This document shows, piece by piece, positions 48,529 to 57,355 of a stretch of DNA of 64,000 bases. The notes beneath the pieces were generated by a model. The model was not told where the DNA came from. It did no database searches and worked only from the letters and a program-made list of their open reading frames with translations. The translations under genes were made by a program, and so were the position numbers. The stretch is from Acidimicrobiia bacterium (GTDB lineage: Bacteria; Acidobacteriota; Vicinamibacteria; Vicinamibacterales; UBA2999). How positions within the stretch are numbered: the stretch's first letter is position 1; the number at the start of each line of letters is the position of its first letter. The stretch lies in assembly GCA_016871275.1 (NCBI GenBank), contig VFZG01000007.1:1-64000 (forward strand). Direction: 5' to 3'.

Positions 48529-48545
48529 TTGGCAGTCCTTTAGCC
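48529..48545 (+). promoter_or_regulatory. Sigma-54 promoter of pilA
   Basis: TTGGCAGTCCTTTAGCC: the -24 GG (48531) and -12 GC (48543) are separated by exactly ten bases, and TGGCA matches the consensus. Transcription would start near 48556, leaving a 120-base leader with a stable stem (48602-48627, loop GAAG). It fits activation by PilR, encoded just upstream. Confidence 0.65.
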
Positions 48546-48675: not shown

Positions 48676-49233
48676 ATGCGTATTCGTTCGAACAAGGGCT
48701 TCACCCTCATCGAGCTGCTCATCGTTGTCGCAATCATCGGCATCATCGCCGCCATCGCGGTGCCCGGGCTCCTGCGCGCCCGCATGTCGGGCAACGAGGC
48801 GTCGGCAATTGGTTCGCTGCGCGCCATCAACAGCTCGCAGCAGGCCTACGCGTCCAGCTGCGCGAATGGCTGGTATGCCATCGATCTGCCCACGCTCGGT
48901 ACCCCGCCCAGCTCGGGCGGCGCGCCGTTCATCAGCCCGGACCTGAGCGCGGATCAATTTGTCGAGAAGAGTGGCTACACGATTGAGTTGCAAGGTGCCA
49001 TCGACGCAACCACGACCGAAACCGCGCCGTGCAACGACGGCGAAGGAAGCGTTAGTTCGGGCAGCCTGGTGAGCGCCTATTACGCTTACGCGGATCCGAC
49101 GTCGCCCGGTTCGACCGGTGCGCGCTACTTCTGGACCAACACGCTCGGCACGATCTACTTTAGCAACAGCGAAACGCTCTCTAACGAATTCGTCGGCAGC
49201 ACCGCCCCGGGCGCGGGCTCGGTTCTGCAGTAA
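48676..49233 (+). CDS. pilA: Major type IV pilin PilA
   Basis: 185 residues. The prepilin site is textbook: SNKG|FTLIELLIVVAIIGI, with Glu5 of the mature protein. After the helix comes a variable globular domain with exactly two cysteines, Cys62 and Cys119, probably a disulfide. AGGAGAG precedes the ATG. A sigma-54 promoter and candidate PilR site lie upstream and a strong terminator follows, so it is expressed on its own at high level. The next gene is a disulfide-forming VKOR-DsbA fusion. Confidence 0.96.
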   Translation: MRIRSNKGFTLIELLIVVAIIGIIAAIAVPGLLRARMSGNEASAIGSLRAINSSQQAYASSCANGWYAIDLPTLGTPPSSGGAPFISPDLSADQFVEKSGYTIELQGAIDATTTETAPCNDGEGSVSSGSLVSAYYAYADPTSPGSTGARYFWTNTLGTIYFSNSETLSNEFVGSTAPGAGSVLQ

Positions 49234-49255: not shown

Positions 49256-49287
49256 CGAAGGGGTGCGGGCCAATCCGCACCCCTTCG
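49256..49287 (+). terminator. Terminator after pilA
   Basis: A perfect 13-base stem CGAAGGGGTGCGG / CCGCACCCCTTCG with a six-base loop lies 22 bases after the pilA stop, followed by the short T-rich TCTGT. The T tract is weak, but the stem is very strong. Confidence 0.75.
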
Positions 49288-49311: not shown

Positions 49312-50553
49312 ATGGCCACAACCGCAGGGTCCACGCACGGGGCGCCACGCGCCGGATGGCTGGCAGGGTTCGCCGCTTTGGGACTGGCAGCCTCGGCAGC
49401 CTCGACCCGGGTCCATCACCAGATCCTCAACGACCCGACCTACGCGAGCTTCTGCGACGTCAATGAGACCTTCAGCTGCACGGTGGCCTATACGAGCCGC
49501 TTCGGCTCGGTGGCCGGCGTGCCGGTCGCGCTACTCGGCCTGCTGTTCTTTGCCTTCGTGTTGCTGGTGATTGCGATCAGCGCGCGCTCGCGGGCCGGCG
49601 AGAACCTGCCCGGGTACGTGTTCGCGGCGTCGACGATTGGGCTTGCCGTCGTGCTGTACCTCGGCTACGCGTCCTTCTTCGTCCTCCAGACCCTTTGTGT
49701 GCTCTGCCTCGCGACGTATGTGGCCGTCGTCGGGCTGTTCGTCACGTCAGGAACCGCCACCGGTAACCTCATATCGAGTCTCCCCGGCCGAGCGATGCGT
49801 GATCTTCAACTCCTGTTCCGGACTCCATCGGCGCTTGGCGCACTGGTGTTGTTCCTGGCCGCGTCGGCGGCCGCGGTCGTGATGCTGCGCGAGCCGGTGG
49901 CGGCCGCGGCCGAATCGGCGTCGCCGTCGGCAGCCGCCGTGCAGCAAGCCATCCCAACGGCGTCGGCGGCGCAATTGAAGCAGCTGGAAGATTACCTGGC
50001 GGCGCAGCCGCGCAAGGTCGTGGCGGCGCCCAGCGACGGCGCGGTGATTGTGATCCTCAAGTTCAACGACTATCAGTGCCCGGGTTGCGGCCAGACGCAT
50101 CGCGACTACAAGCCGGTGATCGCGAAGTGGGCGCAGCAGGCGCCGGGTAAGGTGAAGTTCATCTCCAAGGACTATCCGCTCGAGCGTGAGTGCAACGCAT
50201 TCGTGGCAACCGATCTGCATCTGGGCGCGTGCGAAGCGGCTGTCGCGGTCCGGCTCGCGAAGGAGAAGGGCAAGGGCGAGGCGATGGAGGAGTGGCTGTT
50301 TAAGAACCAGCCGGCCATGAATCCGGACACGGTCAGGAAGGCCGCCGCGTCGGTCGGCGGTGTCACCGATTTCGACAAGCGGTATGCGGCGACGCTGGAG
50401 CTGGTCAAGGCGGACATCACGCAGGGCGCGCAACTGAAGATCGGCGGCACGCCGACGTTCTTCCTCAACGGTATGCAGTTGCCGGGCCTGCGCGCGGAAT
50501 TCTTCGACGCCGCGATTGCCTGGGAACTGAAGAGGGTGACAGGCGGCAAGTAG
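49312..50553 (+). CDS. VKOR-DsbA fusion (disulfide-forming)
   Basis: 413 residues. N-terminal VKOR-type membrane domain with loop cysteines Cys48 and Cys56 (FCDVNETFSC) and quinone-site CVLC (129-132), in four or so helices; another helix near 177-192; then a DsbA-like thioredoxin domain with CPGC (256-259), a GGTPTFFLNG cis-Pro loop. Such fusions make and re-oxidise disulfides in the periplasm in one chain. It sits between pilA and the ABC genes; the pilins here have paired cysteines. Confidence 0.9.
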   Translation: MATTAGSTHGAPRAGWLAGFAALGLAASAASTRVHHQILNDPTYASFCDVNETFSCTVAYTSRFGSVAGVPVALLGLLFFAFVLLVIAISARSRAGENLPGYVFAASTIGLAVVLYLGYASFFVLQTLCVLCLATYVAVVGLFVTSGTATGNLISSLPGRAMRDLQLLFRTPSALGALVLFLAASAAAVVMLREPVAAAAESASPSAAAVQQAIPTASAAQLKQLEDYLAAQPRKVVAAPSDGAVIVILKFNDYQCPGCGQTHRDYKPVIAKWAQQAPGKVKFISKDYPLERECNAFVATDLHLGACEAAVAVRLAKEKGKGEAMEEWLFKNQPAMNPDTVRKAAASVGGVTDFDKRYAATLELVKADITQGAQLKIGGTPTFFLNGMQLPGLRAEFFDAAIAWELKRVTGGK

Positions 50554-50555
50554 AC

Positions 50556-51512
50556 ATGCCGGCTGCGATTGAGACGCAGGAACTCACCAAGGATTTTCTT
50601 GTTGGCTTCTGGCGGCCGAGGCCGTATCGCGCCCTCGATGGATTGACGCTGTCAATAGAGGCCGGGGAAGTGTTTGGCTTCCTCGGCCCCAACGGCGCCG
50701 GCAAGAGCACCACGCTCAAGCTGCTGCTGCAGCTGATCTATCCCACCAACGGGACGGCGCGGATTCTCGGGAAACCTGCGGGTGAGGTCGAGGTGCGGCG
50801 CCGCATCGGCTACCTGCCGGAGAATCCCTATTTCTACGATGACCTGACCGCAGAAGAAGTGCTGTCGTATTTCGCGAGCCTGTTCGGGCTGCGCGGTGCC
50901 GATGTCGCGCGACGCGTGTCGACCGTGCTGGACGACGTCGGCATCGCGGCCGAGCGGCGAATGCGCCTGCGTGGATTCTCGAAGGGGATGTTGCAGCGCG
51001 TCGGCCTGGCGCAGGCGATTCTCAACGAGCCCGACGTGCTCTTCCTCGACGAGCCGATGTCCGGCCTCGATCCGATCGGCCGCCGGCAGGTACGTGACCT
51101 GATCCTGTCGCTGAGGCAGCGTGGCTGCACGGTGTTCTTCAGCTCGCACATCCTGCCCGACGCCGAAGCCTTGTGCAGCCGCGTGGCGATTGTGGTGCAG
51201 GGGCGCCTGGTCGCCAATGGCGCAGTGAGCGAAATTGCGGAGTTTCAGCTCACCGGATGGGAGCTGGTCGCGGCGGATGTCAATGAGTCGCTGCGCTCGT
51301 CGATCGCCGGCCGCGCGCGCAAGGTGACCTCGATTGGAGCCGGGCGATTCGTAATTGACCTGCCGCCTGAGGTTGGGCCGGATCGAGTCTTGGCCGAGCT
51401 GGCCGCCGGCGGCGCGCATATCGTCTCGCTGAACCCCCACCGCGAGACGCTCGAGGACTACTTCATCCGCCAGGTCAGCGCGGCGGCACCACGGCAGACG
51501 GGGATCGACTGA
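50556..51512 (+). CDS. ABC transporter ATP-binding protein, PilH-like by position
   Basis: 318 residues. Walker A GPNGAGKST, a Q-loop region (GYLPENPYFYDDL), signature FSKGMLQRVGLAQAI, Walker B VLFLDEPMSGLD and the H-loop (FFSSHIL) are complete. The partner permease overlaps its stop (TGATG). In Myxococcus xanthus the pil locus has an ABC ATPase (PilH) and permease (PilI) in this same place, needed for pilus assembly; assignment as their equivalent rests on order. Confidence 0.9.
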   Translation: MPAAIETQELTKDFLVGFWRPRPYRALDGLTLSIEAGEVFGFLGPNGAGKSTTLKLLLQLIYPTNGTARILGKPAGEVEVRRRIGYLPENPYFYDDLTAEEVLSYFASLFGLRGADVARRVSTVLDDVGIAAERRMRLRGFSKGMLQRVGLAQAILNEPDVLFLDEPMSGLDPIGRRQVRDLILSLRQRGCTVFFSSHILPDAEALCSRVAIVVQGRLVANGAVSEIAEFQLTGWELVAADVNESLRSSIAGRARKVTSIGAGRFVIDLPPEVGPDRVLAELAAGGAHIVSLNPHRETLEDYFIRQVSAAAPRQTGID

Positions 51513-52315
51513 TGCGCGCCATGGTCCTGGTCGCCGGCGCGGTGTTCCGGGAATCGGTGCGCGATCGCGTGCCGTACTCGATGGTGATGTTCGCCATTCT
51601 CCTGATGGCCGCGTCGTACGCGATCAGCCAGCTCACGGCGGGCCAGGACATGAAGATCATCAAGGATCTCGGCCTGGCCTCGATGTCGGTGTTCGGGATG
51701 CTGATCGCCGTCTTCCTTGGCATTGGGCTGGTGTCGAAGGAGGTCGAGCGCAAGAGCATTTTCGCGCTGCTGGCCAAGCCGGTGACCCGAACGCAATTCG
51801 TGCTTGGCAAGTATCTGGGCCTGGTCGCGACCCTGGTGATCAACCTCGCGGTGATGACGCTGGCGTTCTACGCTGTACTGGCATTCATGGACCTCACCGC
51901 CGGTCCGGAAAAACTGGTGTGGCCCGCGCCCGCGCTCGATCCGCGGCTGCTGATCGCGATCCTGCTGATCATCGCCGAAGTCGCGGTGGTCACCGCGGTT
52001 GCGCTGTTCTTCTCAACGTTCTCCAGTCCGTTGTTGTCGGCGCTGTTGACGCTGGGGTTGTGGACCGCGGGGCACTTCGGATCCGACCTCAGGAATTTTG
52101 GCACCGTGGTGGATTCCGCGCCGATGATCGCGATCGCCCGGGTGCTGTACTACGTTCTGCCGAATCTCGCGCCGTTCGACGTGAAGGCCGAGGTTGTGCA
52201 CGGCTTTCCCGTGGCGGCCAGGCACGTCGCCTACACGCTCGCCTACGGAGGGTTGTACGCCGGGGTGCTGCTCACGGCGGCCGTGGCGATTTTCCGGCGG
52301 CGGGACTTCAAGTGA
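51512..52315 (+). CDS. ABC-2 type permease, PilI-like by position
   Basis: 267 residues with six membrane helices. SKEVERKSIFALLAKPVTRTQFVLGKY is typical of ABC-2 permeases (in parts: KSIFALLAKPVTR, FVLGKYLGL). It pairs with the upstream ATPase. The substrate is unknown; the equivalent in Myxococcus is required for pili but not well understood. Its stop overlaps the next start (GTGA). Confidence 0.85.
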   Translation: MRAMVLVAGAVFRESVRDRVPYSMVMFAILLMAASYAISQLTAGQDMKIIKDLGLASMSVFGMLIAVFLGIGLVSKEVERKSIFALLAKPVTRTQFVLGKYLGLVATLVINLAVMTLAFYAVLAFMDLTAGPEKLVWPAPALDPRLLIAILLIIAEVAVVTAVALFFSTFSSPLLSALLTLGLWTAGHFGSDLRNFGTVVDSAPMIAIARVLYYVLPNLAPFDVKAEVVHGFPVAARHVAYTLAYGGLYAGVLLTAAVAIFRRRDFK

Positions 52316-53253
52316 CCGGTGTGCGCCAGGGCGATTGTCGGCGGGCGCGCCCTGGTGTGGCCGCCCCGGTGGTGCTCGTGGCCGTCCTGCTGGCGGGGGC
52401 GGTTGGCGTGCAGGTCGTGCGGGACCGCGGCTGGTCGCCGTATCAGCCGCCCAATCCGCTGTTGTGGGTGCAGTCCGGGCCGCTGTTGCAGCGGCTGGTG
52501 CTTGGCTTCGACAGCCTCGCAGCCGACATCTATTGGATGCGCGCGGTCGTCTACTACGGCGGCAAGCGGCGCGCGACCGGGCCACAGCTCAGCTACGACG
52601 CGCTCTATCCGCTTCTTGACCTGGTGACGAGCCTCGATCCGCATTTCAGGGTCGCCTACCGGTTCGGCTCGGTCTTCCTCACCGAAGCGTACCCGGCAGG
52701 AGCCGGCCGCCCCGATCTCGCGATTCAGTTGCTGCAGCGTGGCATTGCGCGCGATCACGGGCGCTGGGAGTATTTCTACGACATTGGCTTCGTCTACTAC
52801 TGGTGGTTGCGCGACTACCAGAAGGCCGCCGAATGGTTCCTGAAAGGGGCAGAGCAGCCCGGTGCCGCCGAGTGGCTGAAGCCGCTGGCCGCGACCACGC
52901 TGGCGACCGGCGGGCACCGGGAGACCTCGCGCCAGATGTGGACGCAGTTACTGAACTCCGACATGACCTTCATCCGGAGCCAGGCGGAACTGCGGCTGGC
53001 ACAGTTGGACGCCATGGACACGATCGCCGCCGTGACGCCGGTGCTGCAGCGGTTCATCGACCGCGAGCAGCGCATTCCCAGGTCGTGGCAGGAACTGGCG
53101 GCGGCCGAGCGGCTCGCCCGTGTGCCGGCCGACCCGACCGGCGTGCCGTTCGTGTTCGATCCGAAACTCGGTTTCATCGACGTGTCTCCGAAGTCGCGTC
53201 TGTGGCCGCTGCCGATCGAGTCGCGCGCCCACGTGACACCGCAGCTGCCATGA
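52312..53253 (+). CDS. Membrane-anchored helical (TPR-like) protein
   Basis: 313 residues if the GTG at 52312, which overlaps the permease stop, is used; GTG at 52321 is possible. One N-terminal helix (VVLVAVLLAGAVGVQVV) anchors a periplasmic domain made of helix pairs that look like TPRs (GVQSGPLLQ-type start, then DLAIQLLQRGIARD, then YYWWLRDYQKAAEWFLKGAEQ). I do not know its function. Coupled to the ABC genes and pilD, it could be the PilG counterpart, though PilG lies upstream of PilH in Myxococcus. Confidence 0.65.
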   Translation: MTGVRQGDCRRARPGVAAPVVLVAVLLAGAVGVQVVRDRGWSPYQPPNPLLWVQSGPLLQRLVLGFDSLAADIYWMRAVVYYGGKRRATGPQLSYDALYPLLDLVTSLDPHFRVAYRFGSVFLTEAYPAGAGRPDLAIQLLQRGIARDHGRWEYFYDIGFVYYWWLRDYQKAAEWFLKGAEQPGAAEWLKPLAATTLATGGHRETSRQMWTQLLNSDMTFIRSQAELRLAQLDAMDTIAAVTPVLQRFIDREQRIPRSWQELAAAERLARVPADPTGVPFVFDPKLGFIDVSPKSRLWPLPIESRAHVTPQLP

Positions 53254-54017
53254 TGCCCGTGCTCCTCCTCGCGATCGCCGCTGGGTTGGGCGCGATCATC
53301 GGCAGCTTCCTCAACGTGGTGATCGACCGGCTGCCACGCGGCCAGTCGCTGATCACACCACCGTCGCGATGCCGCCAGTGCGGACACACACTGAAGTGGT
53401 TCGACAACATTCCAGTAGTGAGCTGGCTGATGCTGCGCGGGCGATGCCGCACCTGCGGCGCAGCGGTGTCCTGGCAATACCCTGTGGTGGAGCTCGCCAC
53501 CGCGGCGATGTTCGTGCTGGTGGTGTGGCTGACGCCGATCGGGCCGCTGCTCGTGCCGCGACTGGTGCTGGCCTCGATCCTGATCGCGCTGTTCATGATC
53601 GACCTCGAACACCAGATCCTGCCGAACTCAATCACGCTGCCCGGCATCCTGGCCGGACTGATGTTCAGCACGTTTGCGCCGCCGGGAGAGCGTGATGCGC
53701 TGATCGGCGCGCTGGCCGGCGCGGGCGTTCTCTACCTCATCGCGGCGGCCTACTATCTGTGGCGGCGTGAAGAGGGCATGGGAATGGGCGACGTGAAGAT
53801 GCTGGCGATGATCGGCGCCTTCCTCGGCTGGAAGGCCGTGCTGGTCACGCTGGTCGTCGCGTCGTTCTCGGGCGCCGGTGTCGGCATGGCGATGATGACG
53901 GTGCAGAAAGGCGGCATGAAGTACGCGCTGCCGTTCGGCACATTCCTGGCGCTCGGCGCGCTGGTGTCCATGTTCGCGGCTGAATCGATGGTGGCCTGGT
54001 ACGCCGGGTTTCTCTGA
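53250..54017 (+). CDS. pilD: Prepilin peptidase/methyltransferase PilD
   Basis: 255 residues; ATG overlaps the previous stop. Two CxxC pairs (CRQC, CRTC) bind zinc in the methyltransferase loop, and the catalytic aspartates lie in DLEHQILPN and GMGDVKM. About eight membrane helices. It cleaves prepilins before Phe and methylates the new N-terminus; substrates are PilA and the minor pilins in this locus. It ends directly before the second kinase. Confidence 0.96.
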   Translation: MMPVLLLAIAAGLGAIIGSFLNVVIDRLPRGQSLITPPSRCRQCGHTLKWFDNIPVVSWLMLRGRCRTCGAAVSWQYPVVELATAAMFVLVVWLTPIGPLLVPRLVLASILIALFMIDLEHQILPNSITLPGILAGLMFSTFAPPGERDALIGALAGAGVLYLIAAAYYLWRREEGMGMGDVKMLAMIGAFLGWKAVLVTLVVASFSGAGVGMAMMTVQKGGMKYALPFGTFLALGALVSMFAAESMVAWYAGFL

Positions 54018-55385: not shown

Positions 55386-55440
55386 ACTGGAAATCGACAG
55401 CCAGGCGACCACGGCAGGCGCGTTGCACCAAAGCGCGCCT

Positions 55441-55926
55441 ATGGAGTCACTTCATTCCCGGCATGGATTCACGCTGATCGAAACGCTGGTTGCGATCGGC
55501 ATCCTGATCACCGCGCTTGCGGGCGTTGCCCAGCTGCTTGTGCTCGGGGCGCAATTGGCTCGCCGTTCCACCGTCTCGGGAGTGGCGCTCAGGGCTGCCC
55601 AAAACAAACTCGAACAGCTCCGCGGCCTGACCTTCGCCTTCGATGCGTCGGGCGCGCCGAAGACCACTCCCGGCCTCGAACCGTCATCCTCGGCCAGCCT
55701 GAGTGACGACGAACCGTCGTACTACGACTGGCTCGATGCCAGCGGAGAGGCGCAACAGGACGAGGGTGACCCTGCCTTCGTCAGGCGATGGCGCGTGACG
55801 GCGATTGAGGACTCCTCCCCGGAAGCTCTTGCGATCGAAGTCTGCGTGTTCGTGGCGCCGGCGGAGGGCCGGGGGCCGCAATCCGCAGAAGCCTGCCTGT
55901 CGACAATCAGGACGAGGCAGCCATGA
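55441..55926 (+). CDS. pilV: Minor pilin, PilV-like
   Basis: 161 residues; ATG at 55441 preferred over TTG at 55423. Prepilin site RHG|FTLIETLVAIGILITAL. The small C-terminal domain has exactly two cysteines (135 and 152). PilV-type minor pilins join the tip complex that primes pilus growth. Overlaps the next gene as ATGA. Confidence 0.82.
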   Translation: MESLHSRHGFTLIETLVAIGILITALAGVAQLLVLGAQLARRSTVSGVALRAAQNKLEQLRGLTFAFDASGAPKTTPGLEPSSSASLSDDEPSYYDWLDASGEAQQDEGDPAFVRRWRVTAIEDSSPEALAIEVCVFVAPAEGRGPQSAEACLSTIRTRQP

Positions 55927-56651
55927 GTCGGCGGGGCTTCACCATCATCGAGCTGCTGGTCGCCATGGCGTTGTTGCTGGCGATTTCGGCTGCGCTCGCC
56001 GGGGCGGCTGGCCCGGCACGCCACGCATTCGATCGTGTGCCCGCATACCTCGAGCAGGAGCAGCGGGGGCGGGCGGCCCTCGAGCCGATCGTGCGCGGAC
56101 TTCGATCGGCGGCGATCGTGTCGGCCGTGGATCCCGACGAGAATGGCGTCTCCGGAGCTCTCACGGCGGTCGTTCCCGTCGCCAACGGCGCCCAAGGGAT
56201 CCTGGGGAGCGATCAAGCCGCACCGACCGGCTCCATCAGCCTTGCCGTGGCGCCGTGTCCCCACGTCAGGGACGTCTGCGGGTTTTCGCCGGGAACGGTT
56301 GTGCTCATCACGCGCGACATGGCATTCGATGTGTTCATCGTGGCCACCACCAGTCCCGGCACCCGACGCCTGACGCCGGGTCGCGCGCTGAGCCAGGCCT
56401 ATCCGGCCGGTTCGCGCCTGCTGGAGGTCGAGCAGCACTCGTTCAGCCTCGAATCGCAGTCCGACGGCACCCAAACGTTGATTCGGGAGACTGCCTCAGG
56501 TGCGATCCAGCCGATGGTGGACTTGCTGTCGGGCCTCACGTTCTTCGTACAGCCCGAGCAGGTCGAGATTGGCGTCACGGTACTTCCAACGATCGACTCG
56601 GTGCCGCACCGGGCCTTCAAGGCGTCGGTCCGCCGCCGGAGGTCGTCATGA
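55923..56651 (+). CDS. pilW: Minor pilin, PilW-like
   Basis: 242 residues. Prepilin site SRRG|FTIIELLVAMALLLA. Exactly two cysteines, 112 and 119, close together (CPHVRDVC). PilW-type proteins work with PilV and PilX in the tip complex. The stop overlaps the next start as ATGA, so the three minor pilins are translated together. Confidence 0.8.
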   Translation: MSRRGFTIIELLVAMALLLAISAALAGAAGPARHAFDRVPAYLEQEQRGRAALEPIVRGLRSAAIVSAVDPDENGVSGALTAVVPVANGAQGILGSDQAAPTGSISLAVAPCPHVRDVCGFSPGTVVLITRDMAFDVFIVATTSPGTRRLTPGRALSQAYPAGSRLLEVEQHSFSLESQSDGTQTLIRETASGAIQPMVDLLSGLTFFVQPEQVEIGVTVLPTIDSVPHRAFKASVRRRRSS

Positions 56652-57355
56652 CGGGCGAGCGAGGCATCGCGCTGATCATGGTGGTGCTCGTGACGACGTT
56701 CCTGTCGGCGCTCGGCATGGGTGTGGTGCTGTCCGTCTTCATGGATCGGCTCGCTGCGGGGAACCTCACCGGCACGGTCGCGATGCTTCATGCGGCGGAA
56801 GCAGGCATTGAACTGGCCGCGGCCGACCTGGCGCGCGCCGAGGATTGGGACGCGATTCTCCAGGGCGCGCAGCGGGGCACCTTCACCGACGGCGTCCCCG
56901 GCGGCGTGCGGGTGATCCCAGGCGGCGGAGCGGTGGACTTGACCTCGGCGACCAACCTGTTGAACTGCGGGAAGGCCACGACGTGCACGACGGCGCAGAT
57001 GAACGCCAACTCGAAGGAACGGCCATGGGGCGCGAACAACGCACGGTGGCAGCTCTTCGCGTTTGGACCGATGAACCAGCTGACCGCGCTCAGCCGGCCC
57101 GCGCCTTGCTATCTGGCTGTCTGGATCGCAGACGACGGCCGTGAGAGTGACGGAAATCCGCTCGCCGATGAAGCGGACGCCGAGCTGCCGGGCCACGGAA
57201 TTGTAAGAGTTCATGCCCAGGCGTTCGGTATCGCGGGCTCGAGAAGGGCGATCGAAGCCGAGCTGGCCAGGGTCTGCCCCGGCGGTCCTGGGGAAGCCTG
57301 CCTTCCCGGTATTCGTGTGCAATCGTGGCAGGAACTGCGTCAGGCGGTTCCTTGA
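56648..57355 (+). CDS. pilX: Minor pilin, PilX-like
   Basis: 235 residues. The N-terminus GERGIALIMVVLVTTFLSAL followed by AGIELAAADL is typical of PilX/GspK-type proteins, which often lack the standard Phe at the cleavage site. It has five cysteines. It would sit near the pilus tip. ATG at 56648 overlaps the pilW stop; longer upstream frames are ignored. Confidence 0.75.
   Translation: MTGERGIALIMVVLVTTFLSALGMGVVLSVFMDRLAAGNLTGTVAMLHAAEAGIELAAADLARAEDWDAILQGAQRGTFTDGVPGGVRVIPGGGAVDLTSATNLLNCGKATTCTTAQMNANSKERPWGANNARWQLFAFGPMNQLTALSRPAPCYLAVWIADDGRESDGNPLADEADAELPGHGIVRVHAQAFGIAGSRRAIEAELARVCPGGPGEACLPGIRVQSWQELRQAVP

Follow-up and report, generated by a model that had tools for sequence, protein, structure and literature searches.

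In the pil cluster analysed here, a single gene for a predicted membrane disulfide oxidase, joining a VKOR domain and a DsbA-like domain in one chain, lies directly behind the pilin gene pilA, and it is found directly behind a pilin gene in 90 of 106 genomes of the order Vicinamibacterales (Acidobacteriota), a mostly uncultured group. The window, i.e., the whole stretch of 64,000 nucleotides that was analysed, corresponds to positions 1–64,000 of contig C7 of a 3.96-Mb genome in 124 contigs. It is rather likely that the product is a one-chain disulfide generator fixed behind pilA, with PilA as its probable main client and with other exported proteins served as well. Disulfides in pilins, fusions that involve VKOR and pili that depend on an oxidase are already known; what appears to be new is a VKOR-DsbA gene within a pil cluster that is fixed there across an order.

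The fusion gene occupies positions 49312..50553 of the + strand and encodes 413 amino acids, as delimited by its open reading frame, Pfam matches, cysteine conservation and a structure model. The earlier note had placed a VKOR-DsbA fusion with active cysteines 48, 56, CVLC and CPGC directly after pilA, and this is exactly what the reading frame contains. The Pfam domains are VKOR at residues 16–145 (E 2.8e-26), Thioredoxin_4 at 244–391 and DSBA at 248–398; the score for VKOR (PF07884) is 92.7 bits against a curated cut-off of 27.5, and PF01323 and PF13462 both exceed their cut-offs in the DsbA part, which Foldseek also matches to DsbA. The cysteines are at 48, 56, 129–132 (CVLC) and 256–259 (CPGC), with two more at 294 and 307. 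Among 105 full-length copies (the window counted in and genome G203 present twice, after removal of six partial ORFs and of one locus that lacks a fusion), seven of the eight are invariant, C294 and C307 included; the VKOR loop pair C48 and C56 and the membrane CXXC of C129 and C132 are present in all 105, and the six catalytic cysteines are all intact in 104. The sole copy without C256 is a second fusion copy in G239 (L254, contig C3, ORF 901-2490), with SPAC replacing CPxC; no pil gene was found within the 6 kb read around it. T380-P381-T382, which we take to be the cis-Pro loop of the thioredoxin fold, is invariant across a 13-sequence alignment. The structure model (mean pLDDT 81.6, pTM 0.51) combines a helical membrane part with a thioredoxin-fold part; its neighbours in the PDB are VKOR or VKOR-like proteins and DsbA/ScsC-type oxidoreductases, and for the DsbA part Foldseek ranks Caulobacter ScsC and Corynebacterium DsbA/TsdA first. 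By sequence and model, the protein has complete VKOR-family and DsbA-like domains, and a quinone-dependent oxidase activity is predicted. The VKOR domain, with four to five putative membrane helices, would draw electrons from the tethered periplasmic DsbA domain, presumably through CVLC and the loop cysteines and onward to quinone, and the DsbA domain would oxidise exported proteins through its CPGC motif.

The genes of the cluster follow one another on the + strand in the order pilB, pilT, pilC, pilS, pilR, pilA, fusion, ABC ATPase, ABC-2 permease, a protein of unknown function, pilD, a histidine kinase and genes for PilV-, PilW- and PilX-like proteins; the first five were named by eye from the window sequences, and BLAST finds them in most regions of the order. 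The major type IV pilin PilA (48676..49233, +; 185 aa, Pfam N_methyl, model pLDDT 90.5) contains Cys62 and Cys119. By the window ORFs, 79 bases separate the end of pilA from the start of the fusion gene, and the frame of the ABC ATPase (50556..51512, +; Pfam), in a PilH-like position and found 3' of the fusion in most order genomes, begins 2 bases past it. The ABC-2 permease in a PilI-like position (51512..52315, +) was recognised by Pfam and region comparison, and the prepilin peptidase gene pilD (53250..54017, +) by Pfam A24_N_bact and Peptidase_A24. The PilV-like (55423..55926, +) and PilW-like (55923..56651, +) minor pilins, identified by Pfam and region comparison, have two cysteines each, and the PilX-like protein (56636..57355, +; approximate start), identified by region comparison and without a match in the Pfam search, has five; the cysteine counts given in the earlier note for these proteins and for PilA are thus correct for the window. 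With a class III prepilin signal, a prepilin peptidase, PilB, PilT, PilC and PilSR, the cluster is of the type IVa pilus kind. The best PDB fold match of the PilA model is the pilin FimA of Dichelobacter nodosus, at E 6.4e-3 with none below 0.001, and the fold search was used for no more than to describe PilA as type IVa pilin-like; against the myxococcal PilA model the window PilA matches at its N-terminus with 48.2 bits, far under the 400-bit cut-off. In the Myxococcus-type gene order the fusion presumably occupies the pilG position, a placement by gene order.

The link to the pilin gene is not limited to the genome of the window, and the suggestion of a fixed link within the pil locus is borne out by the order at large. 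In the main set of 106 order genomes at least 90% complete, 90 have a pilin directly upstream of the fusion, defined as no more than 650 bp between BLAST match ends, with the window added by hand. These 90 include a genome whose VKOR half is lost (G254), two with degenerate pilins (G270, G272), two with incomplete copies (G262, G266) and three in which the pilin forms the last part of a larger ORF (G225, G229, G230). Eleven more show related contexts: a pilin upstream with intervening genes in three (G034, G021, G273), an ABC ATPase downstream without a pilin in two (G150, G236), and a contig edge upstream together with an ABC ATPase downstream in six. One genome has an uninformative contig edge (G280), one has a VKOR other than the fusion (G245), and nothing was found in three (G030, G252, G255); a VKOR match is present in 101 of the 106. 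Downstream of the fusion, the 89 genomes with the direct arrangement other than the window have the ABC ATPase in 74 cases, only pilD in 10 and neither in five. Because a pilin stands directly upstream in 90 of 106 genomes, the neighbourhood is not due to chance, and the order-wide synteny probably reflects one origin that was inherited and not many independent events; the fusion gene would have become fixed in the cluster when the order arose or close to that time.

Sampling at other taxonomic depths outlines the distribution of the fusion. Of 40 relatives that share the genus, family or order of the window, 39 carry it. Among 197 genomes sampled across the phylum, 20 order members (own genome included) appear in the matches listed, with long matches of 44–100% identity; outside the order, the best among the matches listed fall on lone DsbA or VKOR domains or on fusions with 24–29% identity. 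By hand count, 162 of 193 class genomes of any completeness belong to the order: 147 of them match with E of at most 1.9e-30, one with 2e-14 and 14 not at all, and the matches of the fusion query in the 31 other class members are no better than 1.1e-21. A VKOR-DsbA gene was not found in 40 pilin regions from outside the order, using the window protein as query at E 1e-4, a search in which a very distant one may be missed. The distant VKOR-DsbA-like ORFs elsewhere in the phylum (24–29% identity) were considered as parallel cases and rejected, since no pilin match accompanied them; 10 of the 13 noted were checked (loci L083-L092), some on short contigs. In L139, one of the 40 outside regions, a DsbA-like ORF stands alone on the opposite strand, roughly 5 kb away from pilA; with 284 aa and a match over 146 residues only, it was not counted either. 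One class relative outside the order, G094, has a VKOR-DsbA-like ORF (G094:C97:1862-3136) on a contig other than that of its pil cluster, which encodes four pilins with four cysteines each. A pattern scan of genome contigs kept 80 of 125 loci, with acidobacterial labels (Acidobacteria, Vicinamibacterales/Vicinamibacteria, Luteitalea and others), and says little on other phyla because its patterns were built from order sequences; six of the 80, labelled Cyanobacteria (one), Acidimicrobiia (four) and Bifidobacterium (one), were taken as mislabelled MAGs of the order (G007, G242, G014, G150, G021, G233).

The pilins of the order show an equally regular feature. From 101 order loci, 137 of 139 candidate PilA-like pilins were aligned, with one duplicate locus left out; the set was chosen by similarity (prepilin motif, length 130–215, at least 60 bits to the window PilA), and seven of its members come from genomes without a complete fusion. 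Two cysteines are present in 132 of them, three in four and none in one. Exactly two of positions 62, 78 and 119 (window numbering) are used in 136 of the 137, in the combinations 62+119 (109 pilins), 78+119 (25) and 62+78 (2), the remaining pilin having none, and no pilin of the set has just one. On a quick pilin tree built without those columns the cysteine positions underwent at least five state changes. In the structure model position 62 is at the end of helix 1 and position 119 in a loop. Read from the alignment, this pattern is the behaviour expected of a disulfide when one partner moves, and it offers good indirect evidence for a putative Cys62–Cys119 bond in PilA. Outside the order, 52 PilA-like pilins in 37 of 40 regions around the best PilA match have no cysteine in 27 cases, one in eight, two in six, three in two and four in nine. 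The cysteine pattern of the minor pilins, proposed earlier as part of the same dependence, does not extend beyond the window as a general feature: by hand count, the PilV-like pilins scored in 15 of 30 order regions have two cysteines in six, four in one, one in two and none in six, and the PilW-like pilins scored in eight of 30 have three in five (all from the own genus) and four in three.

Several loci depart from the common arrangement. In G030 (94% complete), pilT-pilC-pilS-pilR precede three pilA genes that each encode the 62+119 pair, and the ABC genes come next; about 20 bases separate the last pilin frame from the ATPase frame, no fusion lies there, and a search of the genome found no VKOR, DsbB or DsbA-part match. 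The reverse is seen in G188, where the fusion is kept beside a pilin with zero cysteines. The pilins of G252, G255, G235 and G245, which may lie in a pil cluster or elsewhere, retain the pair; the fusion of G235 is truncated at the edge of its contig. G254 has lost the VKOR half, and a membrane-anchored DsbA half still lies behind pilA (L253:7336-8052), with a DsbB elsewhere in the genome; DsbB matches are also present in G252 and G245. In G225, G229 and G230 the pilin, with its cysteine pair, is the in-frame C-terminal part of an ORF of more than 1000 aa (L200:2-3520, L204:359-3880, L205:728-3739). The portion ahead of the pilin is a membrane protein with multiple TM segments that looks YfhO-like by eye; a comparison of two of these three ORFs with NCBIfam yielded weak matches to the glycosyltransferases PgfM1/PgfM2. 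Such an ORF could, from its sequence, encode a polyprotein that PilD would cleave. In G034 (L063:5923-8547) and G021 (L078:10572-13226), a large membrane protein of similar appearance has a gene of its own, located between pilA and the fusion. The pilins beside the fusion in G270 (L231, 4557-5087) and G272 (L233, 2946-3494) have degenerate prepilin signals and both cysteines, and no ABC genes or pilD were found in about 3.5 kb downstream.

Fusions of VKOR with Trx or DsbA domains are known, e.g., the cyanobacterial VKOR. The protein described here shares with them the VKOR membrane domain, the loop cysteine pair with CXXC and the fused periplasmic thioredoxin-fold domain, and differs from them in being a fixed member of a pil cluster. 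Among the titles of the open-licence PMC literature searched, no VKOR-DsbA fusion in a pil locus was found. Oxidative folding of pilus proteins in Actinomyces oris is reported to require MdbA, whose oxidation depends on menaquinone synthesis (PMC5478893); work on VKOR and MdbA in this species is also cited in PMC6744442. A. oris is a Gram-positive bacterium with sortase pili and with MdbA and VKOR as separate proteins, whereas the present case concerns type IV pili and one fused gene in the pil cluster. A thiol-disulfide oxidoreductase has been proposed to fold type IV pilins in CPR bacteria, where 88 of the 750 genomes that possess both have VKOR adjacent to the oxidoreductase (PMC6744442). 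The idea of a VKOR-linked oxidase folding type IV pilins is thus common to that proposal and to the order fusion; in the passages of PMC6744442 considered here, VKOR lies beside the oxidoreductase gene, with no mention of a fusion or of pilA as a fixed neighbour. With the Myxococcus-type pil cluster, whose PilGHI are treated in PMC6060248, the present one shares ABC genes in the positions of PilH and PilI.

How far the enzyme belongs to the pilus can be judged from the rest of each genome. The view that it is dedicated, acting only or almost only on pilins while other exported proteins are oxidised otherwise or not at all, accords with the fixed position behind pilA and with a cysteine pair that is near-universal in the order and gives way to different patterns outside it. 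A division of labour is also possible in the 33 of 106 genomes with more than one VKOR match (some being pieces of one gene) and in the 23 with DsbB; the genome of the window is itself one with a second VKOR (L002, G000:C34:37434-37799), a 304-aa protein with a thioredoxin-like CSHC end and no pilin motif within the 3.4 kb read. However, exactly one VKOR match is present in 68 of the 106 genomes, 53 of them without a DsbB found, and all 53 sole VKORs are in a pil context: 49 have a pilin directly upstream and four have the ABC ATPase downstream; in these 53 no other VKOR or DsbB was found that could oxidise the remaining exported proteins, an unknown oxidase being possible. Because it is so often the only such enzyme, the fusion probably is a general oxidase housed in the pil cluster, of use to the entire cell and not to the pilus alone. 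A weak tendency in the same direction comes from G026, a single-contig genome in which the fusion is the sole VKOR and a DsbB was not found: cysteine counts are even in 15 and odd in 6 of the exported proteins and even in 69 and odd in 78 of the cytosolic ones, differences that are not significant (p = 0.08 and 0.06) and were obtained from 400 kb, 245 genes by home-made calling and 35 exported proteins by heuristic signal calls, one protein with a CxxCH motif having been dropped before the count. With the fusion also retained beside the cysteine-free pilin of G188 and with the minor-pilin cysteines not conserved, the label of a dedicated pilus machine, as used in the earlier note, is not supported, and exclusive action on pilins appears unlikely.

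A looser tie than the preferred one would have a general oxidase enter the pil cluster once and stay there by operon inheritance, with no special relation to the pilin. One origin explains the synteny, the packing with the ABC genes is tight (2 bases), and the tie is broken both ways: three paired pilins occur without a fusion, VKOR or DsbB found in G030, and a fusion occurs beside a cysteine-free pilin in G188, so that the pair is not present if and only if the fusion is. The expectation that paired pilin cysteines accompany the fusion agrees with the pair in 136 of 137 pilins and meets one contrary case in G188; a strict dependence of the pilin on a co-inherited oxidase is not supported, given these two genomes. 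Against mere inheritance of a neighbourhood stand the loci L059, L069 and L076, in whose clusters pilS, pilR and the ABC genes were not found and the fusion is still between pilA and pilD; the DsbA half of G254, alone and still behind pilA; and the pilin pair itself, held through at least five state changes. This reading is judged improbable, more so than a dedicated enzyme. The one-chain generator with PilA as likely main client and a wider service gains from G254, which loses the VKOR half, keeps the DsbA half behind pilA and has a DsbB; G030, G188 and the non-significant parity test count against it. The most likely main client would be PilA, which is probably abundant and held in the same membrane through its N-terminal helix; its bond would be closed between Cys62, where helix 1 ends, and Cys119, and other exported proteins would be oxidised too.

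Two candidate elements may bear on the expression of the pair. A sigma-54-like -24/-12 element, TGGCA-N6-TAGC, was noted by eye upstream of pilA (48530..48544, +); it presumably matches the sigma-54 consensus, in agreement with the PilR (NtrC type) encoded just upstream. The chance figures (0.18 occurrences expected, at least one occurrence in 17 of 100 shuffles) do not amount to a test, because the pattern was written to fit the element. The gap between pilA and the fusion contains a predicted hairpin with a 13-bp G+C-rich stem (49256..49287, +; folding), terminator- or attenuator-like and without a T run, and the 85-base stretch folds with -32.7 kcal/mol (z -3.06). Of 88 intergenic regions examined in the order, 40 have strong stems (score of at least 24) and the others weak ones; in 42 of the 88 none of 20 simple shuffles equals the observed stem. 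Both elements fit a predicted strong expression of pilA and weak expression of the fusion, and the hairpin may allow much pilA and little enzyme. It is conceivable, if somewhat speculative, that pilus regulation (PilSR, a sigma-54-type promoter and hairpin read-through) also sets the envelope-wide oxidising capacity through the main and often only disulfide source.

Genes for disulfide oxidases are usually regarded as housekeeping genes that have no constant neighbour in the genome. Their order-wide pairing with pilA, in the form of VKOR-DsbA, suggests that the folding of pilins can influence in which place, and perhaps for what reason, an oxidative folding pathway is kept. The natural variants, in which the fusion is absent and the pair kept, the pair is lost and the fusion kept, the VKOR half is lost in the presence of DsbB, or the first cysteine is moved, are ready-made tests of the purpose of the pilin disulfide.
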